From Pantanalinema sp. (GTDB lineage Bacteria > Cyanobacteriota > Sericytochromatia > S15B-MN24 > UBA4093), in assembly GCA_036704125.1 (NCBI GenBank), contig DATNQI010000008.1, forward strand, positions 1 through 64,000: 64,000 nt of DNA, given 5' to 3'. This document shows, one piece after another, positions 4,456-60,804 of this stretch; positions within the stretch are counted from its first letter, which is position 1, and each line of letters starts with the position of its first letter. The position numbers were made by a program, and so were the translations under genes. The notes beneath the pieces were generated by a model, which worked only from the letters and a program-made list of their open reading frames with translations, made no database searches and had not been told where the DNA came from.

Positions 4456-5007
4456 ATGCCCAAGATCGCCGAAATCGAGCCCACCCCCAACCCGAACGCC
4501 ATCAAGTTCGTGCTCAAGGAGGCGCTGACCACCGGCTTCGGCCGATCCTTCGACAGCGCGGACGCCGCCTCGAACGATCCCTTGGCCTCGCAGCTCTTCG
4601 CCATTCCTCACGTCACCAACGTCTTCTACCAGGACAAGTGGCTGACGGTGACGCAGGACGGCAAGGCCTCCTGGTCGGAGCTGATGCGCGAGCTGGCGGT
4701 GCCCATCCGGGCGGCGGGCTCGGAGCGATCGCCCGGCGGCACGGCGAGCGCCTCGCGCCAGGCCATCGTCGCCGACGGGGACGAGGCGCGCCTTTCGCGC
4801 ATCAACGAGCTGCTGGACACCAAGGTGCGCCCGGCGCTCGCCATGGACGGCGGTGGCCTGGAGGTGGTGGAGCTCGCGGGCAACATCCTCAGGGTCCACT
4901 ACCAGGGCGCCTGCGGCAGCTGTCCCAGCTCCATCTCGGGCACCCTGATGGGGATCGAGAACCTCATGCAGAGCATCGAGCCGGGCCTGATGCTCGAGGC
5001 GGTCTAA
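4456..5007 (+). CDS. nfu: Nfu-type Fe-S carrier protein (NifU-like)
   Basis: A 183-residue two-domain protein. The N-terminal Nfu domain opens with EIEPTPNPNAIKFVLKEAL. The C-terminal NifU-like domain carries the cluster-binding CxxC in GACGSCPSS. Proteins of this architecture take a cluster from the Suf scaffold and deliver it to apo-targets. A linker of about 30 residues rich in small residues separates the domains. It starts 11 bases after sufU, with AAAGGA upstream, and is the last gene of the suf operon before a strong terminator. Confidence 0.93.
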   Translation: MPKIAEIEPTPNPNAIKFVLKEALTTGFGRSFDSADAASNDPLASQLFAIPHVTNVFYQDKWLTVTQDGKASWSELMRELAVPIRAAGSERSPGGTASASRQAIVADGDEARLSRINELLDTKVRPALAMDGGGLEVVELAGNILRVHYQGACGSCPSSISGTLMGIENLMQSIEPGLMLEAV

Positions 5008-5017
5008 AACAGAAGCG

Positions 5018-5045
5018 GGGGGCGGTCGTTTGACCGCCCCCTTTT
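5018..5045 (+). terminator. Intrinsic terminator of the suf operon
   Basis: A perfect 10-bp stem, GGGGGCGGTC / GACCGCCCCC, with a four-base loop (GTTT), followed by TTTT. It lies 11 bases after the nfu stop. On the minus strand the same hairpin sits just past the stop of the last gene of the lipoprotein cluster, so it may also help end that transcript. Confidence 0.9.
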
Positions 5046-6961
5046 CAGTAGAGCACCCCGACTTCCTGGACTTCGGGGGTGACCGCGGGATCGGCCGTGG
5101 TCAGCGTCAGGCGAAGCCTGAGGTAACGCCCCGAGACTCCTGGGAGGTTGGCCACGTTCTTGCCCTGGGCCGAGGTCCCCGTCACCAGGTTCCAGCCGCC
5201 CCAGGTCAGCGCGTCGCTCGAGGTCGCCGTCTCGACCGCTACTTGGGTCGATGCCGGCAGGCTCGCGACGTCCCAGTACGCCGAACCCCACGTGACGGCG
5301 CCTCCCGCGTCTAGTGCGGGCGTCACGTAGCTGCCCGAGACCGAGTAGACCGGGGTGTCCGGCTGGCGATGCCCCGTCAGGCGCAGCGCGCCGCTGGCAT
5401 CGCGGGGGTTGACGCCCTGGAAGCGCTGAATGCGCCCGTTGAAGTAGTCGGCGATGAGCAGGGCCCCGTCCGGCATGAAGCCTATCTGGCGCATGTCTCG
5501 GAACTGGCCCGGCCCGGACCCGTAGCTTCCGAACTGGCTGAGACGCTCGCCGCTAGGGGAAAACACGCCGATGGTGTTGCTCGCCCCCGAGTAGGGGGCC
5601 CCCGCGAGCACGCGCCCCCAGGGAGCGACCTGGATGGTATAGGCGTTGGCGCCGGTGGACCACTCGGTCACGTACGTTCCGTCGGGCTTCAGCTTCTGGA
5701 TCCGGTTGTTCTGATGATCGACGGCGTACAGGAACCCCTCCGCATCGATCGAGAGGGTGTAGGAGCGCTTGAAGTAACGTGGCCCGGTGCTCGCGACCGG
5801 ATTCGGGGCAGCGGTCCCCACGAACCACGTCGTGCCGTTGCCGACCCCCTGAAGAAACTGGCCGCTCGGATTGAACTTCTGGAGCCGATAGTTGATGGCA
5901 TCCCCCACCCAGATGTTGCCCTGGGGATCCTGCGCGAGCCCATGCGGCGAAGAGAAGGCGCCGTTGACGGATCCCGTGGCCGGAGCGGGGGCTGCGGTCC
6001 CCGTGAACCACGCCGTGCCGTTACCGAGGCCCATGACGAAGTTCCCGTTGGAATCGAAGCGCAGCACGCGGTGATTGGCGACGTCCGCGACCCAGACGTA
6101 GCCGTCGCGGTCCACCATGGTGCCGAGCGGATCGCTGAACCAGCCATTGAGGCTGCCCGTCGCCACCGGCGGCGGGGTGCTCGCGGGTCCCCACGCCTCT
6201 CCCTGCCCCCACGCGCGCACGAAATTGAAGTTGGAATCGAACTTCTGGATGCGATGGTTGCCGCGGTCCGCCACGTAGATGTTGCCCATGGCGTCGACCG
6301 CCGCCTTGTCGGGGTTATTGAACTCACCGTTCAGGCTGCCCGTCGCCCCGAACGACGAGAGGTAGGCAAACTGGTTCGACTGGAACACCTCGATGTTGCT
6401 CGTGGTGGCTCCGTACTTCTCGAAATCCGCCATGGAGGTGAAGGCGGAGCGCGCGCCGAGCAACTGGGCGTCGTTGCCGGCTGGACCGCTCACCAGATCA
6501 GCCGCGCCGCTCCCTGCCGCCACCACCACCGAGAGGCTGAGGTTGAGCTGGTTGGCGCCGGAGGCGAGGGTGACGGGCAGCTTGCCCCAGCTCAGCATGG
6601 TCCCGGTGCCGTTGAGGCCTGCGTATCCCGCCGCATAAAGGGCGTAGCCGCCCCCCGAGGGCAAGCCTGTGAACGTGACCGTCGTGGCCCCGCCGGTGTT
6701 TACCGTCGCCGTCTGGTCCGGCACCCCGGCGTTGCGCAGCAGGACCTTCACCGACTGGGTGTTGCTCAGGATCGCCTGGGTGCGCTGCGGCAGCGCGACC
6801 CGGATGATCACCTGCGCGCTCCCTTGAGCCGCCCTCACGGCCTGAGCGGCATCCCCCGTGGCGGCCAAGGGGCGATCGACGATGCAGCCCCCGATCGCGA
6901 GCACCAGGGGCAACAGCGACCAGAGCCCGAGGGTGATGACGTTCACGGCCTTACGTTTCAT
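5045..6961 (-). CDS. NHL-repeat lipoprotein, type A (cluster I)
   Basis: A 638-residue predicted lipoprotein with a signal peptide ending in lipobox AIGGC (C26). A small beta-sandwich region (about 50-140, with SNTQSVKVLLRN) is followed by several NHL repeats (about 180-480, e.g. GNIYVADRGNHRIQKFD) that should form a beta-propeller. The C-terminal ~150 residues (from ALRLTGHRQPDTPVY) form a separate domain also found at the end of the gene at 16185-18095. The ATG at 6961 is chosen because it starts the signal peptide and overlaps the upstream stop by four bases (ATGA). It is the last gene of a six-gene operon. Ligand and role are unknown; surface binding is a guess. Confidence 0.85.
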   Translation of the reverse strand: MKRKAVNVITLGLWSLLPLVLAIGGCIVDRPLAATGDAAQAVRAAQGSAQVIIRVALPQRTQAILSNTQSVKVLLRNAGVPDQTATVNTGGATTVTFTGLPSGGGYALYAAGYAGLNGTGTMLSWGKLPVTLASGANQLNLSLSVVVAAGSGAADLVSGPAGNDAQLLGARSAFTSMADFEKYGATTSNIEVFQSNQFAYLSSFGATGSLNGEFNNPDKAAVDAMGNIYVADRGNHRIQKFDSNFNFVRAWGQGEAWGPASTPPPVATGSLNGWFSDPLGTMVDRDGYVWVADVANHRVLRFDSNGNFVMGLGNGTAWFTGTAAPAPATGSVNGAFSSPHGLAQDPQGNIWVGDAINYRLQKFNPSGQFLQGVGNGTTWFVGTAAPNPVASTGPRYFKRSYTLSIDAEGFLYAVDHQNNRIQKLKPDGTYVTEWSTGANAYTIQVAPWGRVLAGAPYSGASNTIGVFSPSGERLSQFGSYGSGPGQFRDMRQIGFMPDGALLIADYFNGRIQRFQGVNPRDASGALRLTGHRQPDTPVYSVSGSYVTPALDAGGAVTWGSAYWDVASLPASTQVAVETATSSDALTWGGWNLVTGTSAQGKNVANLPGVSGRYLRLRLTLTTADPAVTPEVQEVGVLY

Positions 6962-9279
6962 GGCGCGATCCCCAGGTAGGTGCGGCGGATGTCGACGGAC
7001 GATCGCTGCGCGTCCCAGACCTTCAGGCCATCCAGCGCCCCCTGTGGGTTCACCACCGAAAAGACGTTGACGCTCAGGAACTCGTTGCAGGCGAAGCTCA
7101 GCAGGTTGAGGGGCGACGCCCCGTTGATGCTCCCCGAAAAGGCTCCCGTCGCCACCTTCTCGCCGTCGAAGTACAGATCCTTGCCCTGCGGCCCCCACGT
7201 GATCGCGAGGTGGTGCCACTCGCCAGGCTTCCAGGGCTGCGAAGCGGGCGTCCAGGTCGTGGGGGCGTCCCAATCGAAGCCCGGGCCGCCATGGGTCCGC
7301 AGGGTGAGGGTCTCGCCGAGCTTGGCCAGGTACAGCACCGGCCACTTCGGGCTGTTCGTCCCGTCGATCGAGAGCAGCTTGAAATCGCCCTCGTTCCAGG
7401 CGTAGGTCGGCTGATACCAGAACGCGATCGCTCCCTGGCGCTTGTTGACGTAGCGATAGGCGTCGAAGGTCAGGCGATCGTGACCGGGCTCGCCTCCGTA
7501 GGGCGTGGCCTTGGGGCCCTGCTCCACCTGGAAGCCGTCGAACCAGACCGTGCCCGTCTTGTTCCGGAAGATGGGGCTCAGCGCGGCGGCGGTACAGGTG
7601 TTGAGGAAGGTGTGGGTCAGCGAGATCTGCGTCCAGTCGAAGGTCCCGACGGGGGCGGCCACGTGCCGCACGTCCACGCCGGAGAGCGAGGCATCGGGGA
7701 GGTAGGGATCCACGTAGAGGCCGAAGTCGGTGGAGCTCTGCGAGCCGCTGACGTTCTTGCCCTTGACCCAGACCGAGAAGGTGTAGGTCTTTCCCGCCTC
7801 GTAGGTGTAGGCGTGATTGAACTTGACGTACTCCGCGGTTCCGCTCGTGGTCTTGTCGATCTTCAGCGATCGCCCGTGGAACAGGGCATCCACGTCGAGC
7901 GAGTAGGTGGCGATGCTCGCCGCGGTCCGGCTCATCCCGTCCGGGATGCCGTCGGCGTCCGAATCCCGCTCGAAGCTGGAGTTGGCGAGCTGGTTGACGG
8001 TGCGGTCGATGAAGACGGCCGTGCCGCTGCGCCCCTCCACGGGGGTCACGCCGACGCTCTCACGGGCGTTGGCGAAGCCCTCGAGGACCAGGCTCCCCTG
8101 GGGGCGAAAATCGGTGGGAGCGCCTTCTTCGAGCTGGGCCGCATCCGCGTAGCACGTGGCGCCGACGGTCTGACCGATTCCCGTCCCGAATCGGATGAGG
8201 GCGATCGCCTTGGGGGTCGAGTACGCCGGGGTGAAGGTCCAGGAATAGCGCTGCCAGGCGGTGGTGAGGGTGAAGGCGTCGCTGCGCACCTCCAGGAACG
8301 GATCCTGGTAGTTGAAGGCGAGGGCGAGCTTCTCGCCCCCCGCGGCGCCCCGTGCATACACCGAGTAGGTGTATGCACGTCCCGCCTCGAGCTTGAGCGG
8401 CCAGCGATGGTCGGCACCGTTGTAGCCCTGGCCGAACCACGAGTCACCCGCGGCCGTGGCGGAAAAGCGCATGGCCTGGCGCCCCTCGTGAGGACTCAGC
8501 GTCTCGAAGGAGTACGTCGCCACTCCCGCGGCGGCATTCAGACGCCAGGGGGCGGGGTTTGCGCCCCCCTCCTCGAACCCGGCGTTCGCGAGCATGTTGC
8601 GGCTCTGATCCGCGAAAGAGAGGCGATACGCCCCGTCCGGGCCGGGACGGACGATCTGCACCGGATCGAGGTTCAACAGGAGCGCCTGGGAGACGAGGGA
8701 CTCGACCGACCGGACCAGGAGCTCGGGCACGCTCGCCGTGAGGCCCGCCTGCTGGTGAACCCCGGTGACCGCATCCTTGCTCACCTTGCCGATCACGTCC
8801 GCGGCCCCGAGGCTCAGGTGGTCCCACAGGATGGCGACGGCCGTGGTCGTGGCCGAGAGCTGGATGGCGGTCCCCGAGACCGAGGTCCAGCCGCCCGCAT
8901 TGAACTGAACCAGGGTCCGCAGCCGGAAGGCGGAGTTCGACGTCCCGCCCAGCGTCTTGCTCGACTCCAGCAGGTAGAGCGACCCGATGGTCGGGGTAAA
9001 GGTCCCCAGCGCCTGGACGGTGAAGGTGCCGTCCGGGGCGGTGATGCCCGTGCCCTTGGCCTGGAAGGTCGAGGGATCGATCAGGGTCACCGTGGCGTTG
9101 GCCCGCACCTGGCCCGCTGTCGCCTGGATGCCGTACCCCTCGGGCAACAGGACCTGCCCGGTCAGGACCGGTTGAGACGCCGGGGCAACGGCCGTCGAGA
9201 CGGCCAGCGGCGTGGGGCGGCACCCGATCGCAAGCAAGGCGACAATCACGAGGCTCAAAGCAAGCCGTAGCTTCCGCAT
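6958..9279 (-). CDS. Carbohydrate-binding-like/LamG-like lipoprotein, type B (cluster I)
   Basis: A 773-residue predicted lipoprotein, lipobox LAIGC (C20). It starts with the ~180-residue module shared by most lipoproteins in this window (TGQVLLPEG..., LRTLVQF, TTTAVAILW). Two regions resembling carbohydrate-binding modules follow, each opening with an N-x-x-FE-type motif (LANAGFEEG near 230; LANSSFERDSD near 430). The C-terminal ~200 residues are a LamG/concanavalin-like fold (GAIAFWYQP, EWHHLAITWG, LYFDGEKV). It begins four bases after the stop of the gene at 9284 and overlaps the next start. It is a close paralogue of 11621-13936, with long near-identical DNA around 8990-9130 versus 13650-13790. 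Confidence 0.83.
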   Translation of the reverse strand: MRKLRLALSLVIVALLAIGCRPTPLAVSTAVAPASQPVLTGQVLLPEGYGIQATAGQVRANATVTLIDPSTFQAKGTGITAPDGTFTVQALGTFTPTIGSLYLLESSKTLGGTSNSAFRLRTLVQFNAGGWTSVSGTAIQLSATTTAVAILWDHLSLGAADVIGKVSKDAVTGVHQQAGLTASVPELLVRSVESLVSQALLLNLDPVQIVRPGPDGAYRLSFADQSRNMLANAGFEEGGANPAPWRLNAAAGVATYSFETLSPHEGRQAMRFSATAAGDSWFGQGYNGADHRWPLKLEAGRAYTYSVYARGAAGGEKLALAFNYQDPFLEVRSDAFTLTTAWQRYSWTFTPAYSTPKAIALIRFGTGIGQTVGATCYADAAQLEEGAPTDFRPQGSLVLEGFANARESVGVTPVEGRSGTAVFIDRTVNQLANSSFERDSDADGIPDGMSRTAASIATYSLDVDALFHGRSLKIDKTTSGTAEYVKFNHAYTYEAGKTYTFSVWVKGKNVSGSQSSTDFGLYVDPYLPDASLSGVDVRHVAAPVGTFDWTQISLTHTFLNTCTAAALSPIFRNKTGTVWFDGFQVEQGPKATPYGGEPGHDRLTFDAYRYVNKRQGAIAFWYQPTYAWNEGDFKLLSIDGTNSPKWPVLYLAKLGETLTLRTHGGPGFDWDAPTTWTPASQPWKPGEWHHLAITWGPQGKDLYFDGEKVATGAFSGSINGASPLNLLSFACNEFLSVNVFSVVNPQGALDGLKVWDAQRSSVDIRRTYLGIAP

Positions 9280-9283
9280 CGCC

Positions 9284-11482
9284 CTACTCCTGCACGAGGC
9301 CGCGCGCCGCGCGGGCGATCGCCTCGGGGCTCAGCGCCGCATCGCGGATCTGGAACCGATCGAAGACCGAATCGGCCGGGGTGTTCAGATTCGTGTCCGC
9401 CCCGACGGTGAGGGTGGCTCCCGGTCCGAAGTTGAGCGTCGCCCCCGGGTTGTCGTTCGAGAGGCCTCCGGCGGCCCGGCCGTCGAGGAACAGGCGTACG
9501 TCGCTGGTGGGGCCGTCCCAGGTCGCGGCGAGGTGGTGCCAGCGGCCCGCCTTGATCAGGGCGGCGGTATCGGGGAGCTCGAACCCGATGCGCCGGGTCT
9601 TGGTCTCGTCGCCCACCCCCGCGGTGACGTAGAAGTACAAGCGATTGCCGAACTTGTGCAGGCCGAAGTTGCACTCGGTGCCGCCCTGGACGCGCACCAG
9701 GCAATGGTCGATTCCGTCGTCGCCGTTCCAGTTCGGCTTGAACCAGAAGGAGATCGTGCCTCGCGTCGCGTTGAAGCGCCCCTTGGCGGGGAACACCGCC
9801 GGCGCGTTGGCGGGGATCAGGCGCTGGACGCGGTGATTCTGGTAATCCACCACCCACATCTTGCCGTCCGGTCCGAAGGAGAGGCCGCGCGGCTGCCGGA
9901 ACTGACCGTTGCCGTAGCCCAAGCCCCCGTAGGCGCCGAGCAGAGCCCCGCTGGAGTCGAACTTCACGATCCGCGACGCCGTGGCCACGGTCGAGAACTC
10001 GGAGACCCACATGTTGCCGGCGTTGTCGAACTTCAGGTCGTCGGGTGCGGTCAGAACGCCGGCCCCGATCGTCGCGAGGTAGGATCCAGCCGAGGAAAAG
10101 CGCTGGATCCGGTTGTTCGCGCGATCGCAGACGTAGACGTCGCCGTTCGGGGCGAAGGCGAGCCCCGTGGGGCCCTTGAACTGGCCCGGGCCCGTGCCGA
10201 GACCCGAGCCGAGCGTCTGCATCAAGGCCGTCCCGTCGGCGCTGAAGCGAAGGACACGGTAGTTCAGGTAATCGGAGACCCAGAGGGTCCCGTCGGGGGC
10301 GATCGTGCCGTTGCTGGGATTCCAGAATTCCGAATTGAGGCTGCCCGAGGCCACGCTCCCCGGCGCGACGGTCCAGCGGCTGCCCTGGCCGATCCCGAAG
10401 AGGAAGTTGCCATTGGCGTCGAACTTCTGCAGGCGATGATTGGTGAGCTCGGTGGTCAGGAAATTCCCGTCCGGATCGAGGCTGATGCCGTGCGGCGAAT
10501 CGAACTGGCCCGCCCCCGTGCCGAAGCTCCCGAAGGTCGAGATGAAGCGGCCGTCAGCGGCGAACTTCTGGATGCGATGGTTCTTCCACTCCGCCACCCA
10601 GACGGTCCCCCCTCGATCGACGGTGACGACGATCGGAGAGTCCATCAGCCCCGGGGCCGTTCCCTTTCCGCCGATTTGGCCGTCGAAGAGGGCGAGCGCG
10701 TTCGAAAAGGCGATCGCCGTCCCCCCGTCGCGGCCGGCGACGAGCGTGCTGCCGGTGCCGGACGCCGAGAGGGCATCCTCGAGATCGAAGAGCTGCCGCC
10801 CCTGCCCGCTTTGCAATTGCAAGCGATAAGTCGTATCCGAGGCGGTGTAGGTCAGCCACTTGACCGGGTCCAGGTTGGAGGCGAGCGCCTGGCTCACCAG
10901 GCCCGTCACCGTCGCCAGCTCGGTGGCCGTCACCCCGCCCGCGGGGGTGAAAACACCGGTCGAAGGGTTCAGGGCATCCAGCAGGCTCGTCCCCGCCACC
11001 GCTCGCAGGTCCTTGATGGCGGCAAGCGCCGTGGTCTGGGCGTTCAGGATCACCCCTGCCCCGCCGCCCTGCGAAGTCGTGCTGCCCGAGAGCGATCGCC
11101 ACTTGCTGCCGTCCCAGCAGACCAGGGTGCGGAAGCGAAGTGCCGCACGATCGTTGGTCTTGTCGAAAGTCTTGAGCGCATCGAGCACGTAGACGGCATT
11201 GGTCGTGGGCGTCCAGCTCACGAAGGGGTTGAGGCCGAAGGCCCCCGAGGCGTCCGTCAGGCCGGTGGCCACCACCGTGTTGCTCGCATCGAGCAGGGTC
11301 ACCGTCGCGTAGGCCACGAGCTCGGCAGCCGTCGCCTGGGCTTCGTAACCCGACGTGACCCGTCCCCACAGGGACGAGCCTTCCTGGATGGCCTGTGCGG
11401 GGCGAGACGGGTCCACCGTAGGACGAATGCCCGGCTGGCAGGCACATAGGCACGCAACGAGTACGAGGGAGATTTTCTTCAC
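9284..11482 (-). CDS. NHL-repeat plus LamG-like lipoprotein, type C (cluster I)
   Basis: A 732-residue predicted lipoprotein. The GTG at 11482 is preferred because it places a short signal peptide and lipobox LCAC (C15) at the very N-terminus. The frame is open upstream to about 11554, but that extension has no signal-like start. Domains in order: the shared N-terminal module (about 30-260, with LRFRTLVCWDGSKW and the DP motif SNLDPVKWLTY), five or more NHL repeats (about 290-560, e.g. GGTVWVAEWKNHRIQKF), and a C-terminal LamG-like fold (GTISFWFKPNW, RWHHLAATWDG, LFLDGR). It is a paralogue of 13942-16185 and is followed by a type B gene, as that copy is. Confidence 0.82.
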   Translation of the reverse strand: MKKISLVLVACLCACQPGIRPTVDPSRPAQAIQEGSSLWGRVTSGYEAQATAAELVAYATVTLLDASNTVVATGLTDASGAFGLNPFVSWTPTTNAVYVLDALKTFDKTNDRAALRFRTLVCWDGSKWRSLSGSTTSQGGGAGVILNAQTTALAAIKDLRAVAGTSLLDALNPSTGVFTPAGGVTATELATVTGLVSQALASNLDPVKWLTYTASDTTYRLQLQSGQGRQLFDLEDALSASGTGSTLVAGRDGGTAIAFSNALALFDGQIGGKGTAPGLMDSPIVVTVDRGGTVWVAEWKNHRIQKFAADGRFISTFGSFGTGAGQFDSPHGISLDPDGNFLTTELTNHRLQKFDANGNFLFGIGQGSRWTVAPGSVASGSLNSEFWNPSNGTIAPDGTLWVSDYLNYRVLRFSADGTALMQTLGSGLGTGPGQFKGPTGLAFAPNGDVYVCDRANNRIQRFSSAGSYLATIGAGVLTAPDDLKFDNAGNMWVSEFSTVATASRIVKFDSSGALLGAYGGLGYGNGQFRQPRGLSFGPDGKMWVVDYQNHRVQRLIPANAPAVFPAKGRFNATRGTISFWFKPNWNGDDGIDHCLVRVQGGTECNFGLHKFGNRLYFYVTAGVGDETKTRRIGFELPDTAALIKAGRWHHLAATWDGPTSDVRLFLDGRAAGGLSNDNPGATLNFGPGATLTVGADTNLNTPADSVFDRFQIRDAALSPEAIARAARGLVQE

Positions 11483-11573
11483 ACCTAACCCTCGCTTGCC
11501 CGTTCCTCCTTGGAGCGGGGGGCAAAAAGCCTGGCTGATTGTTATATTCCACAAGCAGGTAAGCGAATAACCA

Positions 11574-11596
11574 CCTGCATCACAGGCCGATGCAGG
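11574..11596 (-). repeat. Hairpin in the spacer between the two C-B cassettes
   Basis: The 138-bp spacer 11483-11620 is the only sizeable gap inside lipoprotein cluster I. It holds an 8-bp perfect inverted repeat CCTGCATC / GATGCAGG with a seven-base loop. There is no T-run on either strand, so a terminator is not shown. On the minus strand TATAAC (11541-11546) could be a -10 for the downstream C gene, but no good -35 is seen. Confidence 0.45.
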
Positions 11597-11620
11597 CCCA
11601 ACAGCATCGGGGCAGTGGCA

Positions 11621-13936
11621 CTACAGAGCTGCTACGCCGAGGGCATCGCGGCGAATGGCGGCCTGATCCCGCTGGAGGTCCCATACCTTGAGACCGTCCA
11701 GGGTACCGCTCGAGCAGTAGCCCACGTTGTTGCACAGCCCGGAGAAGTACAGCAACCGGATCTGTCGCGCGAAGTAGAGCGGCCCGCCGTAATCGCTCAC
11801 TCCGACGCGTTCGCCGTCGACGAACAGCTCAGAATTGCGAGGGCCCCAGGTCATTGCGATGTGATGCCAGGTATCCGCTGCCCAGGCATCCGTCGCCGGT
11901 ACCCAGTCGATCCAGCGCCAGTTCGTCCCGTCATGGACCGCGAGGCCCAGGGCCGGCCGGCCGGATGAGGCACGGTTCTTTCGCAGGAGCAAAATCGCGT
12001 CATCGGCCGAGTTCGTCATGCCGGCAAGATAGCCGTTGCCCCGATCATCGCTCCACTCATAGGCGGGCCGATACCAGAACGTCACCGCACCCTGCGAGGG
12101 ATTGAACGAGCGGGCATCGACGCTCAGCCGGTCCAGGCCCGTGCCGTCCCCGCCGTAGGGGGTCAGGACCGTCCCCTCCTCGACCTGGAGACCGTCCCAC
12201 CAGGCAATACCCGTCTTGTTCCGGAAAATGGGATAGACATCCAGGTGGTCGCAGTTCGCCGTCCACATGAAAGAGACGCTCAGCCGCGTCCATTCGAAGG
12301 TTCCGGTGGGAGCCGCCATCCGCGAGGTCCCCCCGTAGCCCGCACTCGGGGTCCGCTGGTCGAGGTAGAGGCCGAAGTTGGCGTTGTCGGGGGCGCCGGA
12401 GATGTTCTGGCCCTTGACCCAGATGGACGCGGTGTAATACTTGCCGGCCTTGAAGGGGTAATAGGAAGGATAGTTGACGATGTGCGCGGTGGATCCGCCA
12501 GAGCGGTCCATCTTGAGGCTGTACTGGCCGAACAGCGCGTTCGCCGAATCCAGGGCGCAGACCGCCCCGGCCCCGGTCTGAGTCAGGCCGTCCGGAACGC
12601 CGTCCGCGTTGCTGTCCACCTCGAAGCTGGTGTTCTGGAGCGGCGAGAGCGAGTTGGAAGCGATGTTGACCCCGCTCTCCAGCACGATGCCGTTGCCGGT
12701 GCGCCCCGGGGCCGCCGTGACCCCCGCGCCCTCGTAGACGTTGGCGATGCCGTCGACGAGCAGGCGCCCCTGAGGCTGGTAGCCGGTGACATTGCTCCCC
12801 TCCTCCAGCTGGATCGCGTCCAAGTAGAAGGTCGAGCCGACGGTGCTGTGGCGGATCAGGAAAATCGCCTGCGAGGTCGAATAGCCGGCGGTGAAGGTCC
12901 AGGAATAGCGCTGCCAGGCCGTGGTCAGCGAGAAGTTCGAGCTGCTCTGCTCGGAGAACGGGGACTGGTAGTTGAAGGCGAGGGCCAGCGCCTCCCCGCC
13001 GACGGCCCCCCGGGCATAGACCGAGTAGGTGTAGGTCCGTCCCGCGACGAGCGTGATCGGAGCGCGGCCGTTCGAGCTGTCGTAGCCCTGGCCCAGCCAC
13101 GAATCACCCGCGCCGGTCCGGTTGATGCGCAAGCTCTGACGCCCCTCGTAGGGGGACGCCGTCTCCACCGAGTAGCTGGCATTCACGGTGTTGTTCGTCC
13201 GCCAGTGGGTGGGAAGCGCGCTCCCCTCCTCGAACCCCGCGTTCCTGAGCAGGTTGCGGCCGGCGTCCCCCATCGCGAGGATGAAGGAATCGGCAGGCCC
13301 TGGCCTGACGGTCTGCACCGGGTCCAGGTTCAAGAGCAGGGCCTGACCGACGAGGGCCTCGACCTCGCGGACCCTGGCGGCGCCGATGCTGGCGGAAAGA
13401 TCGCTCGCGACGTGGCCACCGGTGGTCGCATCCCGGCTCACCTTGCCGATGACCGCCGACGTCGCCAGGCCGAGGTGGTCCCAAAGGATCGAGACGGCCG
13501 TGGTCGTGGCCGAAAGCTGGACGCTGGCCCCCGAGATCGAGGTCCAGCCGCTCGCGTCGAACTGCACCAGGGTCCGCAGCCGGAAGGTGGAATTCGACGT
13601 CCCGCCCAGCGTCTTGGTGGATTCGAGCAGGTACGGCGACCCGAGGGTCGGGGTGAAGGTCCCGAGGGCCTGGACGGTGAAGGTGCCGTCCGGGGCGGTG
13701 ATGCCCGTGCCCTTGGCCTGGAAGGTCGCGGGGTCGATGAGGGTCACGGTGGCGTTGGCCCGCACCTGGCCCGACGTCGCCTGGGTGGCGTATCCCTCCG
13801 GCAGCAGGATCTCGCCGTGCAAGAGCGGGGCCTCGGAAACCGCCGGCGCGATCGCGGGCGTCGTCGGAGCCGGCCGGCACGCGAGCACCAGCAGGGCCGA
13901 GAGGACGAGGCTCAGAATCAGGCGAACACTGTTCAT
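11621..13936 (-). CDS. Carbohydrate-binding-like/LamG-like lipoprotein, type B' (cluster I)
   Basis: A 771-residue predicted lipoprotein, lipobox LVLAC (C20). The architecture equals 6958-9279: shared N-terminal module (LLHGEILLPEGYATQA, LRTLVQFDASGW), two carbohydrate-binding-like regions (LRNAGFEEGS near 230; LQNTSFEVDSNADG near 430) and a C-terminal LamG-like fold (GAVTFWYRP, TWHHIAMTWG, LFVDGERV). The ATG at 13936 has AGGAG about ten bases upstream and lies five bases after the stop of 13942-16185; a longer open frame upstream lacks a signal peptide. High DNA similarity to its paralogue points to recent duplication or gene conversion. Confidence 0.83.
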   Translation of the reverse strand: MNSVRLILSLVLSALLVLACRPAPTTPAIAPAVSEAPLLHGEILLPEGYATQATSGQVRANATVTLIDPATFQAKGTGITAPDGTFTVQALGTFTPTLGSPYLLESTKTLGGTSNSTFRLRTLVQFDASGWTSISGASVQLSATTTAVSILWDHLGLATSAVIGKVSRDATTGGHVASDLSASIGAARVREVEALVGQALLLNLDPVQTVRPGPADSFILAMGDAGRNLLRNAGFEEGSALPTHWRTNNTVNASYSVETASPYEGRQSLRINRTGAGDSWLGQGYDSSNGRAPITLVAGRTYTYSVYARGAVGGEALALAFNYQSPFSEQSSSNFSLTTAWQRYSWTFTAGYSTSQAIFLIRHSTVGSTFYLDAIQLEEGSNVTGYQPQGRLLVDGIANVYEGAGVTAAPGRTGNGIVLESGVNIASNSLSPLQNTSFEVDSNADGVPDGLTQTGAGAVCALDSANALFGQYSLKMDRSGGSTAHIVNYPSYYPFKAGKYYTASIWVKGQNISGAPDNANFGLYLDQRTPSAGYGGTSRMAAPTGTFEWTRLSVSFMWTANCDHLDVYPIFRNKTGIAWWDGLQVEEGTVLTPYGGDGTGLDRLSVDARSFNPSQGAVTFWYRPAYEWSDDRGNGYLAGMTNSADDAILLLRKNRASSGRPALGLAVHDGTNWRWIDWVPATDAWAADTWHHIAMTWGPRNSELFVDGERVGVSDYGGPLYFARQIRLLYFSGLCNNVGYCSSGTLDGLKVWDLQRDQAAIRRDALGVAAL

Positions 13937-13941
13937 GGCGC

Positions 13942-16185
13942 TCACTCCTGGACCAAGCCGCTCGCCTCTCGGGCGATCTCCTCGGGGCTCAGCACCACGT
14001 CCCGGATCCGGAACTGGTCGATGACCGAGTTGCACTGAAGGGTCGTGCCGCTGATCGCCGCCCCGACCATCATGGTCCCCGGCGCCCCGAACGCGAAGCT
14101 CGCGGGGTTACCCGTCTGGAAGCTGCCGTACTCCCTGCCCTGCAGGAAGAAGCGAACCTGCCCGTTGGCAGCGTCCCACGTGGCGGCCACGTGATGCCAC
14201 TTTCCCTTGCGCAGGACCTGCGAGAGCTCCGCCTTGTTGATGCCCACCCGCCTGGTCTGGGCCTCGCTCGCGGTGTTGTCCGAGACGTAGAAGTACAGCT
14301 GATCGGCGATGCCCGTCGTGGGGTTGCCGTAGGTCACCACCAAGCGGCAGTTGGGCTGACTGATCTCGAAGAAGTAGCGGGTCGTGGCCGAATCGATTCC
14401 CCAGTTCGGCTTGAACCAGAAGGAGATGCTCCCCTTCGCGGCGTTGAAGTTGCCACCCGGCACGAACTGCATCGGCGCATTGGCGGGGATCAGGCGCTGG
14501 AAGCGGTAGTTGTTCTCGTCCGCCACGTAGAGGGCGCCGTCCGGGCCCCAGGCCATGCCGCGGGCGGTCTTGAACTGGCCGTCTGCGCTCCCGTTGGTGC
14601 CGAACTGGCCCAGGTAGGTCCCCGTGCGCGTGAACTTCTGGATCCGGTGGCCGGCGTACTCGCTGACCCAGACGTTTCCGGCCTGATCGACGAGGATGTC
14701 CTCGGGATTGTTGAACTGGCCCGGCCCCGAGCCCGTGGTGCCCCACTTGCCGAGGAAGGCGCCGCCGCTCGACAGGCGCTGGACGCGGTTGTTCTTGCGG
14801 TCCGCGACGTAGACGTCCTGGTTGGGGGCGATCCCCACGCTGATGGGGCTGTCGAAACCACGATCCACCGAGGACGAGGCGCTCTGGTTGCCGGCCGAGG
14901 TGGTCCAGACCGTGCCGTTGCCGATGCCCATCTGGAAGCCGCCGTTTGAATCGTACTTGAGGACACGGTTGTTGAGCGTGTCCGCGATCCAGATGTTTCC
15001 GGCGGGATCGAACTTGGCGTAGTGCGCCGAGTTCAGAAGATTGTGGCCGCTGCCCGTCGTGACGCTCTGGCTGGCGGTCCAGCCGCTGCTCCCGTTGCCG
15101 ATGCCGAAGCGCAGGTTGCCAGCCGAGTCGATCTTCAAGACCCGGTAGTTGACGTAGTCGCTCACCAGCAGGTCGCCGTTGCGGTCCAGGTCCACGCTGT
15201 GAGGGTTCGAGAAGGCCCCCACCCCGGATCCCACGGTCGTGAGGGTCCGCAGGAAGGTCCCGTCGAGCGAGAGCAGCTGGATGCGGTTGTTGCCGCGATC
15301 GCCCGCGTAGATGATGCCTTCGGGGGAGACGGCGATCCCCGTCGTCACGCCGAAGAGGCCGTTGGCGACCCCACGTGCGCCGATCTGGCCGTCGTAGAGC
15401 GCAATCTCGTCGGCGATCGCATAGGCGCGGCCGCCATCCACGCCCCGGACCGCCGTGGCTCCCGCCGGCCCCTGCACGAGCGCATCCTCCAGGTCGAAGA
15501 TGATGCGACCGGTCTGGGGCGCCATCGCGAGGCGATACGTCCCGCCGGTATAGGTCAACCACTTGACGGGATCGAGGTTGGAAGCGATCGCCTGGTTCAC
15601 CAGCCCCGTCACCGTTACCAGCTCGGCATCCGTAACCCCGCCGGCAGGCGTGAAAACACCGGTCGAAGGGTTCAGGGCGTCCAGCAAGGTGGTCCCCGCC
15701 ACCGCTCGCAGGTCCTTGATCGCGGCAAGGGCCGTGGTCTGGGCGTTCAGGAGCACCCCCGATCCGCCGCCCTGCGCGATGGTGCTGCCAGAGAGCGATC
15801 GCCACTTGCTGCCATCCCAGCTGACCAGGGTCCTGAAGCGCAAGGCCGCACGGTCGTTGGTCTTGTCGAAGCTCTTGAGCGCGTCCAGGGCGTAGACCGC
15901 GTTGGTGGTGGGCGTCCAGCTCACGAAGGGATTGAGGCCGAAGGCCCCCGAGGCGTCCGTGAGGCCCGTAGCCACCACCGTGTTGCTCGCGTCGAGCAGG
16001 GTCACCGTGGCGTAAGCCGTCAACTCGGCGGCCGTCGCCTGAGCCGAATAGCCCGAAGTGATCCGCCCCCAGAGCGCGGACGAGGCCTGCGCGGCTTCGG
16101 CCTGAGCGGGTGGCCCGGCGAGGGGCCGGACCGCGGGGGCGCAAGCCGCCAGTGCGAGTGGAAGCAGCAACCATGCGTGGCGCAT
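13942..16185 (-). CDS. NHL-repeat plus LamG-like lipoprotein, type C' (cluster I)
   Basis: A 747-residue predicted lipoprotein, lipobox LAAC (C15). The domain order is the same as in 9284-11482: shared N-terminal module (LRFRTLVSWDGSKWRSLSG, SNLDPVKWLTYTGG), NHL repeats (about 275-560, e.g. GNIWIADTLNNRVLKYDSN), then a LamG-like domain (GSISFWFKPNW, KWHHVAATWD, FFLQGREYGSF). Its ATG shares one base with the stop of 16185-18095. N-terminal DNA is nearly identical to the paralogue (for example a block around 15650-15760 versus 10970-11070), while the propeller sequence has diverged more. Confidence 0.83.
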   Translation of the reverse strand: MRHAWLLLPLALAACAPAVRPLAGPPAQAEAAQASSALWGRITSGYSAQATAAELTAYATVTLLDASNTVVATGLTDASGAFGLNPFVSWTPTTNAVYALDALKSFDKTNDRAALRFRTLVSWDGSKWRSLSGSTIAQGGGSGVLLNAQTTALAAIKDLRAVAGTTLLDALNPSTGVFTPAGGVTDAELVTVTGLVNQAIASNLDPVKWLTYTGGTYRLAMAPQTGRIIFDLEDALVQGPAGATAVRGVDGGRAYAIADEIALYDGQIGARGVANGLFGVTTGIAVSPEGIIYAGDRGNNRIQLLSLDGTFLRTLTTVGSGVGAFSNPHSVDLDRNGDLLVSDYVNYRVLKIDSAGNLRFGIGNGSSGWTASQSVTTGSGHNLLNSAHYAKFDPAGNIWIADTLNNRVLKYDSNGGFQMGIGNGTVWTTSAGNQSASSSVDRGFDSPISVGIAPNQDVYVADRKNNRVQRLSSGGAFLGKWGTTGSGPGQFNNPEDILVDQAGNVWVSEYAGHRIQKFTRTGTYLGQFGTNGSADGQFKTARGMAWGPDGALYVADENNYRFQRLIPANAPMQFVPGGNFNAAKGSISFWFKPNWGIDSATTRYFFEISQPNCRLVVTYGNPTTGIADQLYFYVSDNTASEAQTRRVGINKAELSQVLRKGKWHHVAATWDAANGQVRFFLQGREYGSFQTGNPASFAFGAPGTMMVGAAISGTTLQCNSVIDQFRIRDVVLSPEEIAREASGLVQE

Positions 16186-18095
16186 CAGTACATCACTCCC
16201 AGTTCCTGAATCACCGGTGACAGCGCTGCATTGCTCGTGCCCAGGGTCACACGCAGCTTGAAAAATCGACCGGAGACCCCGACCAGGTTCGCCAGCGTAC
16301 GGCCGGCGCCGGGCGAACCCGTCACCAGGCTCCAGGTCCAGGTGATGCCGTCACTGGAGCATCCCGCTTCGATCGTCGCAGAGGTGCCCACGGGCAGGGT
16401 CGTGATGTCCCAGTAGACGGATCCCCAGTCGATCGTCGAACCCGCATCCACGGCGGGAGTCAGGTACGCGCCCGAGGCGGCATACGACGGATTATCCGGC
16501 TGCCGATGCCCCCTCAGCCTGAGCGCGCCGGCGGGGTCCTTGGGGTTGGCGCCGCGCCAGCGCTGCACGCGGCTGCCGTCCCGATCGATCGTGAAGAAGT
16601 TGCCGTCCGAGGCCCAGGCGATGCCCTCGGGATTCTGCAACTGACCGTCCCCCGTGCCGAACACGCCGAAGCGCGAAAGCAGGATGCCATCGCGATTGAA
16701 AACCTGGTAGAAATTCGGGCCAGGCGTCGAACCGTAAGCGGCCACGTAGATGTTGCCGTCGGGACCGAGCTCGAGATAGCCAGCGGTTCGCTGGTCGGGC
16801 TTGTCGGGGCTGGCGGTGGAGAAGGTGCGCACATAAGCGCCGCTCGGGTTGAAGACCTGGACCCGCTCATTGAAGTCAGTCGCGTACATCGTGCCGTTCT
16901 CATCCACCCGGACATGCCAGGCGTTCGTGAACTGACTCGCACCATTACCGCTCGCGGTGGTGGCAGGCAAGCCGGCAGCGCTCGTCCAGGTGGTCCCCTG
17001 CCCGATGCCGCGCAAGAACACCCCGCTGGGGCTGAAGATGTGGAGGCGGTGCTGGCCCATCCCGCCCACGTAGATGTTGCCCGAGCGATCCAGGTCGAGC
17101 CCGTACGGCTGCATGTGCCCGATGGCATTCGCCAGTGCCGCGACCGCAGGGGCGGCGCTGGGTGCGAACCACGGCGTGTTGTAGCCGATGCCCATCAGGA
17201 AGTTGCCGCTGGAGTCGTACTTCAAGATGCGGCGGTTATTCGTATCCGACACGTAGACGTTGTCCTGGGCATCCACCGTCAGTCCCGACGGCCCGTTAAG
17301 GCCGTAATTGGTGGATCCCGTCGCTGGAACAGGAGCAGCCGCCGGTGCCACCCACACCTGGTCGCTGCCGATTCCGCGCAGGAAATTGCCGTCCTTGTCG
17401 AACTGCACGATCCGTTGATTGTTGTCGTCGGAGACCCAGATACGGTCCCGCGAGTCGATCGCAATCATCTGGATGTGGGATCCAAACTGGCCATTCAGGT
17501 TGCCCAGGGTCCCGAACTTGGACACGTAGGTGTTCTGACTGGGGTCGTAGACCTCGATGTTGCTCGACGTCGCCGTCGGCGCCTGGAAGTCCGCCATGGT
17601 CGTGAAGACCCTCTGGGCCCCCAGTTGCACCGCGCCGTTGCCCGCAGGCCCCGTGATGATGTCCGCGGCAGCGGCGCCCGCGCTCACGACCACCGAAAGG
17701 CTCAGGTTGAGCTGGTTGCGGCCCGAGGCGAGGGTGACGGGCAGCTTGCCCCAGCTGAGCATGGTCCCGGTCGCGTTCAGGTCCGAATAGGCCGCGGCGT
17801 ACAGCGCGTATCCCCCACCCGAGGGGAGGCCCTCGAAGGTGACCGTGGTGGCGGTGCCGGTGTTCACCGTGCGCGTCACGTCGTTGCTTAGCGCATCGCG
17901 CAGGACGATCTTGACCGACTGTGTGTTGGAGACAAGGGCCTGGGGTGCGCGCTCGGGGAAAGCGACCCGGATCGCGACGCTCGCCGTGGACCGGCTCTCG
18001 GTGGACGATCGCGGCGCATCGCCCGCCGGGAATACACCCGGCTGGCAGCCTCCGACGAACATCAGCATTAGGAACCCGGCGATGGCGCGGCGCAT
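16185..18095 (-). CDS. NHL-repeat lipoprotein, type A' (first gene of cluster I)
   Basis: A 636-residue predicted lipoprotein, lipobox FVGGC (C17). The ATG at 18095 is preferred because GGGGGAGG lies just upstream and a signal peptide follows; the frame extends 16 codons further without one. It matches 5045-6961 along its whole length: a beta-sandwich with SNTQSVKIVLRD, the GLPSGGGYALYAA block, NHL repeats (about 160-470) and a C-terminal domain starting ALRLRGHRQPDNPSY. As first gene of the six-gene minus-strand run, it faces the divergently transcribed peptide precursor gene across a 198-bp spacer. Confidence 0.84.
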   Translation of the reverse strand: MRRAIAGFLMLMFVGGCQPGVFPAGDAPRSSTESRSTASVAIRVAFPERAPQALVSNTQSVKIVLRDALSNDVTRTVNTGTATTVTFEGLPSGGGYALYAAAYSDLNATGTMLSWGKLPVTLASGRNQLNLSLSVVVSAGAAAADIITGPAGNGAVQLGAQRVFTTMADFQAPTATSSNIEVYDPSQNTYVSKFGTLGNLNGQFGSHIQMIAIDSRDRIWVSDDNNQRIVQFDKDGNFLRGIGSDQVWVAPAAAPVPATGSTNYGLNGPSGLTVDAQDNVYVSDTNNRRILKYDSSGNFLMGIGYNTPWFAPSAAPAVAALANAIGHMQPYGLDLDRSGNIYVGGMGQHRLHIFSPSGVFLRGIGQGTTWTSAAGLPATTASGNGASQFTNAWHVRVDENGTMYATDFNERVQVFNPSGAYVRTFSTASPDKPDQRTAGYLELGPDGNIYVAAYGSTPGPNFYQVFNRDGILLSRFGVFGTGDGQLQNPEGIAWASDGNFFTIDRDGSRVQRWRGANPKDPAGALRLRGHRQPDNPSYAASGAYLTPAVDAGSTIDWGSVYWDITTLPVGTSATIEAGCSSDGITWTWSLVTGSPGAGRTLANLVGVSGRFFKLRVTLGTSNAALSPVIQELGVMY

Positions 18096-18190
18096 CCCAC
18101 CTCCCCCGCGAGCGCGGCGCCCGAGGGCGAAAAGAGCAGGCAAGCTCCTGAGTCATTCCACGGCCTCGCATCGCTGAAACCTAAGACACC

Positions 18191-18227: not shown

Positions 18228-18256
18228 TTGCAGTAAGTGGCAATCGAGCCGACAAT
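18228..18256 (+). promoter_or_regulatory. Candidate promoter of the NHLP precursor gene
   Basis: TTGCAG (18228-18233), 17-bp spacer, GACAAT (18251-18256). The match to sigma-70-type elements is partial (three and four of six). It sits 38 bases before the chosen start and overlaps the CACTT/AAGTG inverted repeat. Confidence 0.3.
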
Positions 18257-18293
18257 GGCTCCATTGACGCGCCATCACACAAGGAGAATCGAT

Positions 18294-18698
18294 TTGTCGC
18301 AGGAAAAGACGCTCGAACAGATGCAAGAAGAGCTGGTGAAGGTCCTGATGCAGGACGAGGCGCTCAAGGCCGAGTTCATCGCCAACCCCAACGCCGTCGC
18401 CTCGCGGGTGCTCGGGATCTCGATCCCGTCGTTCGTCAAGCTGATGCCCGTCGAGGTGCCGGCCAACGCCATCCTCGTCCCCCTCCCCGCCCAGACGAGC
18501 GAGGACGAGCTGTCGGACCTCGACCTCGAGCTGGTCGCCGGCGGCAAGACCCAGGCCGGCAAGGCCATCAAGATGATGGGGCTTGCGATGGGAGTCGGCT
18601 TCTCCTATATCTTCACCGGGGCGAACAGCAGCCAGACCAACAGCGTCAGGAACAAGTTCAGCCAGGCGCACGAGGAACTCGGGTCCCCCCGGCCATAG
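18294..18698 (+). CDS. NHLP-leader RiPP/bacteriocin-type precursor peptide
   Basis: A 134-residue protein with a long leader of the nitrile-hydratase-like (NHLP) type. Visible family features are an early acidic helix (LEQMQEELVKVLMQDEALK), AEFIANPNAVAS, IPSFVKLMPVE, the LVPLPAQ block, and DELSDLDLELVAGG ending in a double glycine at 83-84. Cleavage there would release a ~50-residue core starting KTQAGKAIKMMG. The core is cationic, glycine-rich and hydrophobic in its first half, polar in the second, and has no cysteine. The TTG start is chosen because AAGGAG (18281-18286) lies seven bases before it and the leader then begins MSQEKTLEQ; in-frame GTG 18237 and ATG 18255 lack such a site. The C39 exporter genes converge on it from the right. 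Confidence 0.85.
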   Translation: MSQEKTLEQMQEELVKVLMQDEALKAEFIANPNAVASRVLGISIPSFVKLMPVEVPANAILVPLPAQTSEDELSDLDLELVAGGKTQAGKAIKMMGLAMGVGFSYIFTGANSSQTNSVRNKFSQAHEELGSPRP

Positions 18699-18716
18699 GG
18701 CGCGAGGCCACAAGCA

Positions 18717-18758
18717 AAGCGTCGAGGCGCCGGCAAATTGCTCGGCGCCTCGACGCTT
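18717..18758. terminator. Bidirectional hairpin between precursor gene and export operon
   Basis: A perfect 16-bp stem, AAGCGTCGAGGCGCCG / CGGCGCCTCGACGCTT, with a 10-base loop. It lies 18 bases after the precursor stop, and its last base is the first base of the tolC-like stop codon on the other strand. There is no long T-run, but the stem is very stable and serves both convergent genes. Confidence 0.75.
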
Positions 18759-20035
18759 CAAGGGATCAGCTCCTCGACCTCCAGGCCAAGGGCCTGGGCG
18801 AGCCTGAGCTGGGTGGTCTTGACCTCGTAGGATCCCTGGATGTACGAACTCTGCGCTTGGCTCAAGGACGACAGGGCGCTCGTCACCTCGAGGCCCGTGC
18901 CCACCCCCGCGTTGAAGCGCACCTTGGCGAGCTTGAGACCCTCGATCGCCGCCTGGAGGCCCTGCTGGGTCACGGCCACGCGCTCCTGGGCCGACTGCAG
19001 GGCCTGGGCGGTGGTCTGGATTTCGAGGGCCGCCGTGCGGCGGGTGGCGGCGAGCGAGGCCTCTGCCCGCTCGGCCCCGAACTGGGCTTGGCGAACCTGC
19101 GTCGCCGTGCGCCCGCTGTCGAAGAAGTTCCAGGCGAGCGAGGCTGCGATGGTCTGCTGCGTCCCGCCGCCGGGCGCGGTCGTCACGTCGCCCACCGCAC
19201 TGACGGTGGGCCACGTGGTGCGCGCGCGCTGGCGCGCCGTCTCCACTTGCCCCTCGCGCGCGAGGATCGCCTGCGCCACCTCGGGGCGCCCGTCGAGGGC
19301 CTGGGCGATCTGCTCGGGATCGTAGGCCAGGTGCTTGAGCTGGGTCATGGGCTCGACCCTCAGATCCGCCACGGGCCGGCCGAGCTGGCTCTCGAGGGTC
19401 TGGCGCGCCTGGCGCAATTGATTGACCGCACGGAGGAAGCCCTCCTGCGCGATCGCCACCGAGGACTGGGCCTGCAGCACCTCGAAGCGCGTGCCCACCT
19501 GGCCCTGCGAGCGAAGATCCGCGAGGCACAGCTGGTCCTTGGCCTGTTCGACGTTGATCCGCGCCGCGTCCCGCAAACTCTCGGCCTGAAGGACCGCGAT
19601 ATAGGCGAGCGCCGTGTCGTAGGCTACCTTGCGCTGGGCCCCGCGCCGCTCGACCTCGGCGAGCTGCGCGCCGAGGTCCGCGAGTCGCACCGCCGACGCG
19701 GTACGCGCTCCGTCGTAGAGCGGCTGCACCGCGCTGAGCTGGAGCTGGAAGCCGTAGGGGCTCTGGGGCGAGACGGTGCGCAGGGGCACCCCGGTCACGT
19801 CTGTCCGGTTGAGCCCCCCCGACAGGGACAGGGTGGGCTGCAGGCCCGTCCGGGCCTCGCGTACCGCCGCCTGCGCCTGGTCGACCCCGAGGCGCGCCGC
19901 CTCGATCGAGGGATGGGTGCGGGTGGCGATCGCCACGGCCTCCTTGAGGGTCAGGACCTGCGCCTGGACACTCGGCGCCATCAAGGCCCAAGAAAGGGCG
20001 AAGCAGAGTGCTCGCGCGCCATGCCGCCCCTTCAT
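18758..20035 (-). CDS. TolC-like outer-membrane efflux protein
   Basis: A 425-residue predicted outer-membrane factor. It has a signal peptide ending near QAQ, then LTLKEAVAIATRTHPSIEAA, the usual start of an OEP domain, and two long helical repeats with coiled-coil character (EVERRGAQRKVAYDTALAY; TRRTAALEIQTTAQALQSAQ). The length is normal for TolC family members. The ATG at 20035 overlaps the upstream stop by four bases; a longer frame has no signal peptide. As last gene of the NHLM export operon, it likely forms the outer-membrane exit for the exporter at 21468-27197. Confidence 0.88.
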   Translation of the reverse strand: MKGRHGARALCFALSWALMAPSVQAQVLTLKEAVAIATRTHPSIEAARLGVDQAQAAVREARTGLQPTLSLSGGLNRTDVTGVPLRTVSPQSPYGFQLQLSAVQPLYDGARTASAVRLADLGAQLAEVERRGAQRKVAYDTALAYIAVLQAESLRDAARINVEQAKDQLCLADLRSQGQVGTRFEVLQAQSSVAIAQEGFLRAVNQLRQARQTLESQLGRPVADLRVEPMTQLKHLAYDPEQIAQALDGRPEVAQAILAREGQVETARQRARTTWPTVSAVGDVTTAPGGGTQQTIAASLAWNFFDSGRTATQVRQAQFGAERAEASLAATRRTAALEIQTTAQALQSAQERVAVTQQGLQAAIEGLKLAKVRFNAGVGTGLEVTSALSSLSQAQSSYIQGSYEVKTTQLRLAQALGLEVEELIP

Positions 20036-21033
20036 GGCTGGGTCCGCTCGGGCCGGTAGGTCACGCCGATCGAAACGTCGTCGCGATCGATCGTGAGATC
20101 CCCGCCCCAGGCCTGGTGGCGGTAGCGGCCTTCGAGGCGCAGCGCAGGCGTGACGGCGTAGCCCAGCCCGATCGCCCCTTCCCACAGGCGCGTGAGCGCC
20201 ACCGCGTAGGGGGCGCGTGCGGCGTTGAAGGAGAGGGCGGGGTAGTAGGCGAGAGAGCCCAGCAACTCAAGGCGATCGCTCGGCTCCCAGGCGAAGGGCA
20301 GCTCGAGACCGAGCCCCCGGCGATCGTGGGCGTAGTCGTAGGGCGTGCCGGAAAGGGCCAAGTTCGCCGCCGCCACGCTGCTGTTCACGAACGACAGGCT
20401 CGGCGCGACCTCCCAGCCCCCGCCGCCCAGCGCCTGGCCCAGGCGAAGGCGGTAGGTGCTCTCCTCGGGCGCCGGGCCTGCCGCATCCACGGCAGGCAGC
20501 GCCGGCATGGCCACCCCCGCCTTGAAGCGCTCGAACGCACCGCCAAGCAGCCAGGCATCGAGCCGGACATGCCCCGTGAGCGAAAGCTGGTTGTCCAGGG
20601 TGCCCGAGAGTCGGTTGCCCGCAAAGGCGCTCGAAAAGGCGCCCGTCTGGTACGCGAGCTGGATCTGGGTGTCGAGTGGGCGCGAGGACGGCTTGGCCGG
20701 CAGCGTGGCGAGCAGGGGGCGGTACTGCGGGAGGTAGGCCTCGACCGGCTTCAGAAAGAACTTGCGGGCGCCGGCCACCGGCTTTCGGTCGAGCTGATAG
20801 CCCTCGGCCGAGAACACGAGAAATTGCAGCCCATCCGGGGCGAGCGTCAAGCTATAGCGGCCGTTCGCGTCGGTAAAGCCGGCGACGATGGCTCCCTCCT
20901 GGCGAACGAAGACATTCGGCAGCGGGCGGCCCTGCGGGTCGAGGACCTGGCCGCTCACGGCCTGCTCGGCGAAAGCGGGCCGGGAGAGAGCGGGAACGAG
21001 CAAGAGGGCGGCGAGGAAGGGGCGTGAACTCAT
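20032..21033 (-). CDS. Predicted outer-membrane protein with carboxypeptidase-regulatory-like domain
   Basis: A 333-residue protein with a signal peptide (cut after PAFA, about residue 22). A ~75-residue carboxypeptidase-D regulatory-like (transthyretin) domain follows (VSGQVLDPQGRPLPNVFV, TDANGRYSLTLAPDG). The remaining ~220 residues alternate polar and hydrophobic positions and end in aromatic-rich strands (LRLEGRYRHQAWGG...ISIGVTY-type), suggesting a beta-barrel. It sits between a lipoprotein and the TolC-like gene in the NHLM operon, overlapping tolC by four bases. Such a barrel is not part of the core NHLM set; a receptor or accessory channel role is inference. Confidence 0.7.
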   Translation of the reverse strand: MSSRPFLAALLLVPALSRPAFAEQAVSGQVLDPQGRPLPNVFVRQEGAIVAGFTDANGRYSLTLAPDGLQFLVFSAEGYQLDRKPVAGARKFFLKPVEAYLPQYRPLLATLPAKPSSRPLDTQIQLAYQTGAFSSAFAGNRLSGTLDNQLSLTGHVRLDAWLLGGAFERFKAGVAMPALPAVDAAGPAPEESTYRLRLGQALGGGGWEVAPSLSFVNSSVAAANLALSGTPYDYAHDRRGLGLELPFAWEPSDRLELLGSLAYYPALSFNAARAPYAVALTRLWEGAIGLGYAVTPALRLEGRYRHQAWGGDLTIDRDDVSIGVTYRPERTQP

Positions 21034-21054
21034 GGCAACTGCTCTCTTGGCACT

Positions 21055-21450
21055 CTAGGGGCGAACCAGGGCGATCTCGGCGAGTCGCACGGCCTTGCCG
21101 TCCGCCGCCAGGACCCCGCGAAGCTTGGCGCTCGCGTCGGTCGCGGGGAAGGCCCCCGTGAAGGCGAAGTCCATGGCCGAGCCGGTGCGGATCCCGCTCG
21201 TCTCGACGCCCCCCGCAAGCAGGGTGACGGCCTTGGCCTCGCGAACGGGTGCTGGCAAATCGGCGAGCGACAGCGAGATCATGGGCGCCCCGCCGATCGG
21301 CTGGCTCATGGTCGCCGTCAGGCTCAGCACGCCCGCCTCGGCCGGGGTCGCCTGCAAGGCGCCCGTCGACTGGCAGCCGACGAGCCCCATGGCGAGCGCG
21401 AGGCTCGCAGCCCCCTTCCATCCGAGGGCCCATGGCCGTTTCGTCTGCAT
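21055..21450 (-). CDS. Small lipoprotein in the NHLM export operon
   Basis: A 131-residue predicted lipoprotein with lipobox LVGC (C26). The mature part is ~105 residues, probably beta-rich, with no recognised family. The ATG at 21450 is preferred because AAAGGAAG lies about six bases upstream. An in-frame ATG at 21468, which overlaps the stop of the upstream ABC gene by one base (TGATG), is an alternative that would add six residues. It could help anchor or gate the export complex, or give self-protection to the producer; the sequence alone does not say which. Confidence 0.65.
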   Translation of the reverse strand: MQTKRPWALGWKGAASLALAMGLVGCQSTGALQATPAEAGVLSLTATMSQPIGGAPMISLSLADLPAPVREAKAVTLLAGGVETSGIRTGSAMDFAFTGAFPATDASAKLRGVLAADGKAVRLAEIALVRP

Positions 21451-21467
21451 CGCGCGCTTCCTTTCCA

Positions 21468-52683: not shown

Positions 52684-52693
52684 CCTCGAACTC

Positions 52694-56538: not shown

Positions 56539-56554
56539 CACGCCCCTCCCGTCG

Positions 56555-58408: not shown

Positions 58409-58410
58409 GG

Positions 58411-59568: not shown

Positions 59569-59577
59569 GGCAGGCCT

Positions 59578-60600: not shown

Positions 60601-60804
60601 AGGGGTCTCCAGGGGCGAGCCCAAGACAGGGGCAAGAAGGCCCACTTGGCAGTTATACCCACCCGAGGGCCGATCCGCATCCAAAGTGCGCACCACGCTT
60701 CCAGCAACCTATCGAGAGCGAGATCGGGGCGCTCGCTCGAGCGCGCCGATCCCCTCGTCACATCCCCCCGGCGAGGAATTCCGGCATGGGGTAGGATAGG
60801 CGGC

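Follow-up and report, generated by a model that had tools for sequence, protein, structure and literature searches.

A lipoprotein gene cluster in Pantanalinema sp. most simply read as a tandemly repeated C-B-A cassette, with probable gene conversion between neighbouring copies

The lipoprotein cluster and its surroundings

The window analysed here is a stretch of 64,000 nucleotides from Pantanalinema sp., a member of the class Sericytochromatia of the Cyanobacteriota (assembly GCA_036704125.1, contig DATNQI010000008.1, positions 1 to 64,000). Six long genes, all on the minus strand, span positions 5045-18095 and are transcribed in the order A'-C'-B'-C-B-A (Table 1). Neighbouring genes inside A'-C'-B' and inside C-B-A abut or share a few bases, and these two groups are set apart by a gap of 138 bases. 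The first-pass annotation had described a six-gene lipoprotein cluster with a C-B pair in tandem and an A-type gene at either end, and the open reading frames and their common strand bear this description out. Its domain assignments were likewise recovered with Pfam, namely NHL repeats in A and A', NHL repeats with LamG-3 in C and C', and CBM_4_9 with LamG-3 in B and B'.

Table 1. Features of the cluster, in coordinates of the window
Feature	Position	Strand	Evidence
Terminator-like hairpin 3' of A	5018..5041	-	10 pairs, 9 of them G-C; consensus match only
A, lipoprotein: NHL propeller, C-terminal sandwich-like domain	5045..6961	-	ORF, Pfam
B, lipoprotein: N-terminal domain, CBM_4_9, second CBM-like domain, LamG-3	6958..9279	-	ORF, Pfam, NCBIfam
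B tract, residues 56-148, low silent divergence to B'	8836..9114	-	Fourfold sites identical 53/61 vs 99/198 outside, p=0.0002
C, lipoprotein: N-terminal domain, NHL propeller, LamG-3	9284..11482	-	ORF, Pfam, propeller model
C tract, residues 59-176, low silent divergence to C'	10952..11305	-	Fourfold sites identical 61/74 vs 88/171 outside, p=0.0028
Gap from B' to C, expected site of a second A gene (138 bases)	11483..11620	-	No A remnant
B', lipoprotein: N-terminal domain, CBM_4_9, second CBM-like domain, LamG-3	11621..13936	-	ORF, Pfam, NCBIfam
B' tract matching the B tract	13493..13771	-	dS blocks, fourfold-site scan
C', lipoprotein: N-terminal domain, NHL propeller, LamG-3	13942..16185	-	ORF, Pfam
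C' tract matching the C tract	15655..16008	-	dS blocks, fourfold-site scan
A', lipoprotein: NHL propeller, C-terminal sandwich-like domain	16185..18095	-	ORF, ATG at 18095; NHL E=1.6e-18

Each protein begins with a hydrophobic stretch that ends, as read by eye, in a lipobox-like cysteine (...IGGC, ...VGGC, ...AIGC, ...VLAC, ...LCAC and ...LAAC), and the proteins are probably exported and lipid-anchored at this residue. The CBM_4_9 match of B covers residues 228-360 (Pfam, E=1.9e-11), xylanase CBM modules in the PDB match the same protein with E ~1e-6, and the CBM-like parts of B and B' are assigned by NCBIfam to a 'head spike fiber' type domain. The structure model of C is reliable mainly for the propeller, which has good model confidence and matches NHL structures with a TM-score to target of ~0.88-0.91; the model of B is poor (mean pLDDT 46.5). 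No catalytic domain was recognised in the cassette proteins. Identity with ScyF, the scytonemin-biosynthesis NHL protein (NF035926), was considered and rejected, the scores of 129-162 bits lying below the curated cut-off of 350 and covering the NHL repeats only. Judged by their domain families only, which include carbohydrate- and protein-binding folds, the proteins together may constitute a surface or outer-membrane binding set acting via NHL propellers and LamG/CBM4_9 domains.

Adjoining the cluster is an NHLP-type RiPP export locus (18237-27536). Its leader-peptide precursor lies on the plus strand (18237-18698), pointing away from A', and scores 44 bits, below the cut-off of 50.9. On the minus strand there follow genes for a TolC-like protein, a CarboxypepD_reg protein, subunit 2 of the NHLM ABC transporter, subunit 1 with its C39 peptidase, and an HlyD protein of the NHLM type.

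A third cassette and the order of the genes

A whole-genome search found one more full-length copy each of C, B and A, adjacent on another contig (C18). This independent copy, C''-B''-A'', has the order and strand of the C-B-A unit in the window, and its existence changes the interpretation of the cluster, which is most simply described as a C-B-A cassette repeated directly in tandem, less one A: A', then C'-B'-(no A), then C-B-A. The repeats are not all complete, A being absent between B' and C, and searches of the 138-base gap for a remnant of it and for an unusual RNA fold found neither. Since no trace of the gene was found in the gap, it is from gene order alone that the loss of one A gene appears probable.

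The cluster had earlier been called mirror-like, which does not hold. ACBCBA read backwards is ABCBCA, all genes lie on one strand, and a self-BLAST of positions 5001-18150 returned 9 direct and 0 inverted matches; a mirror or inverted duplication is rejected on these grounds. What looked like a striking mirror pattern becomes a set of direct tandem repeats once the third genomic copy is counted.

The dispersed cassette lies in other surroundings. Directly upstream of it, on the same strand, are genes for a hybrid histidine kinase and an HD-GYP response regulator (L009:13589-17460), which are possible regulators. As the dispersed cassette adjoins these genes, the NHLP export locus is not a conserved neighbour, and a functional link between that locus and the cluster is not supported.

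Silent sites and domain histories

In codon alignments, the pairwise dS between copies is ~0.74-1.1 overall, falling to 0.19-0.24 in residues 51-150 of B/B' and to 0.36-0.50 in residues 51-200 of C/C', and it is mostly 0.6-1.3 in the remaining blocks. A scan of fourfold sites delimits a tract of low silent divergence in each of these two pairs (Table 1), with ends that fall inside the N-terminal domain and not at domain borders; in none of the seven remaining pairs, A/A' among them (p=0.28), did the scan find a significant tract. The comparisons with the dispersed cassette are the key control, because silent sites with an inherently low rate of change would stand out in these comparisons as well. 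For both B/B' and C/C', the tract is found between neighbours and is absent against the dispersed copy, which is the pattern taken as the sign of gene conversion, and coarser tests were mixed. When the N-terminal domain as a whole was set against the remainder, B gave p=0.007 and C gave p=0.21. The bootstrapped local excess relative to the dispersed copy was 0.19 for C/C' (CI 0.07-0.30) and 0.07 for B/B' (CI -0.04 to 0.18), the latter not significant because B and B' are closer in CBM1 too.

The first-pass annotation had called the N-terminal DNA of the pairs near identical. In steps of 15 codons this is true in part for B (~84-98% in residues 46-150) and for C (~80-98% in residues 61-210), and it fails for A/A', where the N-terminal 50-codon blocks have 69-75% DNA identity without a silent-site signal. 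Such similarity might also arise with no recombination, by stronger purifying selection on the N-terminal domain, which ranks with the best-conserved parts of every pair, comparisons with the dispersed cassette included. For A/A', where the scan shows no silent-site tract, this explanation suffices. As an account of the cluster it is very unlikely, as purifying selection on a protein does not reduce silent divergence in the tandem pairs alone, and the comparisons with the dispersed cassette are without such a tract. It is the silent sites that tell probable gene conversion apart from plain selection.

Trees were made for single domains, the families B and C (or A and C) serving as mutual outgroups. 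The N-terminal domain tree places C and C' as sisters, with p-AU ~0.024 for the alternatives. In the propeller tree, A' joins the dispersed copy (UFBoot 100; p-AU 0.003-0.006 for A+A'), so that the propellers of A and A' are not nearest relatives, and C+C' is disfavoured (p-AU 0.03) and not rejected by the SH test. The LamG trees and the tree of the B N-terminal domain resolved no pairing. Bootstraps of identity agreed with the trees: for A and C it was in the N-terminal domain that neighbours were most alike, and for B/B' in the 5' tract of that domain and in CBM1, with no resolved pairing in CBM2 and LamG; in general, the distal domains were near-equidistant or favoured another pairing. The C propeller, the second CBM and LamG are about as far from their tandem counterparts as from the dispersed copies. 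The earlier pairing of C with C' and of B with B' is thus upheld for the N-terminal domain of C and for the 5' tract and CBM1 of B, and probably not for the C propeller. As far as sequence comparison goes, the cluster is a mosaic whose domains have different histories, and recombination is its probable cause.

Duplication with later diversification of the binding parts, or else gene conversion, had been offered as explanations, and the data favour conversion, or an equivalent recombination, superimposed on an old duplication. The account preferred here, and considered fairly probable, is a tandem array derived from a C-B-A cassette, in which the copies are old and the 5' parts of C/C' and B/B' later underwent segmental gene conversion. 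The three-gene lipoprotein cassette would have been duplicated long ago, one intact copy lying elsewhere in the genome. Neighbouring copies would later have exchanged the 5' parts of C/C' and B/B' through segmental gene conversion or an equivalent form of homologous recombination, thereby keeping the membrane-proximal domain alike as the propeller, the second CBM and LamG drifted apart. Each gene is represented by just three copies within a single genome, from which the direction and timing of exchange are not readable.

Two other histories were weighed against segmental conversion. The C-B pair may have been duplicated in tandem recently, its propeller, CBM and LamG parts then diverging rapidly by adaptation, and overall identity is indeed slightly higher within C/C' and B/B' (54-56%) than against the dispersed copies (48-49%). 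This course of events is improbable, given that C+C' is not the favoured pair in the propeller and that silent sites of the distal domains are as diverged between tandem neighbours as against the dispersed copy, where selection on the protein would not raise dS. Alternatively, the duplication may be of intermediate age and the distal domains of one copy may have been replaced, through recombination, by those of a diverged homologue, the shared N-terminal tracts being original. Replacement of this kind yields the same mosaic of dS and trees as conversion, to which it is formally equivalent, and the grouping of the A' propeller with the dispersed copy is compatible with it. Nevertheless, it would need a donor for several domains, whereas the distal domains of B and C, like both end domains of A, occur in the three cassettes only among the loci examined, and the tracts stop within the N-terminal domain and not at domain borders; replacement is for these reasons regarded as doubtful.

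If segmental conversion did occur, a functional meaning can be imagined for it, to which only a small probability is attached: the cassette may be a surface recognition unit that diversifies its binders, conversion keeping the membrane-proximal adaptor uniform. Were this true, different binders would dock on the same machinery.

Occurrence of the proteins and comparison with known systems

The N-terminal domain common to B and C comprises ~180 residues (for example, positions 10817-11377 of the window). Against Pfam it gave nothing above cut-off, with weak carboxypeptidase-regulatory or Ig-like matches, and against the PDB no match. This genome has 31 matches to it, other class genomes have up to 26, and in all it occurs in 10 of the 18 class genomes; the cases checked carry TIG and, in part, NHL domains. 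The domain is a candidate new protein family, as judged from these searches, and suggests that this lineage near the cyanobacteria, itself little studied, has a large family of lipoproteins as yet without a name. A second paralogous lipoprotein cluster lies in the same window on the minus strand (50746-60708), with five genes that share the N-terminal domain and encode mostly TIG and teneurin-like NHL domains.

Close relatives of the cassette proteins were not found in other genomes. In the 17 other genomes of the class, B had no relative at E<=1e-25 and A had none at E<=1e-40; for C, a search of 58 other genomes at E<=1e-100 found none either. A contig scan gave LamG- or NHL-level matches only, which lay in other phyla and had 24-60% identity. 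Photosystem II proteins are absent from this genome and from the tested members of the class and present in other genomes of the phylum, and the host class is therefore probably non-photosynthetic. A literature search on lipoproteins or NHL proteins of Sericytochromatia found nothing relevant. As far as searched, the C-B-A cassette itself is new to description, and the evolution of the gene family is of an ordinary kind acting on this newly described protein set.

The mechanism of conversion is not new, since gene conversion between tandem bacterial paralogues is already described for PE_PGRS17 and PE_PGRS18 of Mycobacterium, at least as that report presents it (PMC1762029). Both cases concern tandem paralogues with signs of conversion between neighbours. 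The proteins are unrelated, however, the repeat unit here consists of whole three-gene cassettes, and conversion was shown there by comparing strains, whereas here it is inferred from one genome (PMC1762029). As for the domains, the propellers of C and A match the NHL propellers of TRIM71, Thin, TRIM2/3 and PknD by sequence, and the C model matches them by fold. In contrast to those proteins, the propellers described here belong to bacterial lipoproteins with LamG or a C-terminal sandwich, and have no RNA-binding or kinase context. Additionally, B shares its CBM_4_9 match with the CBM4_9 modules of xylanases, but is without a recognised enzyme and continues instead with a second CBM-like domain and LamG, within a lipoprotein.
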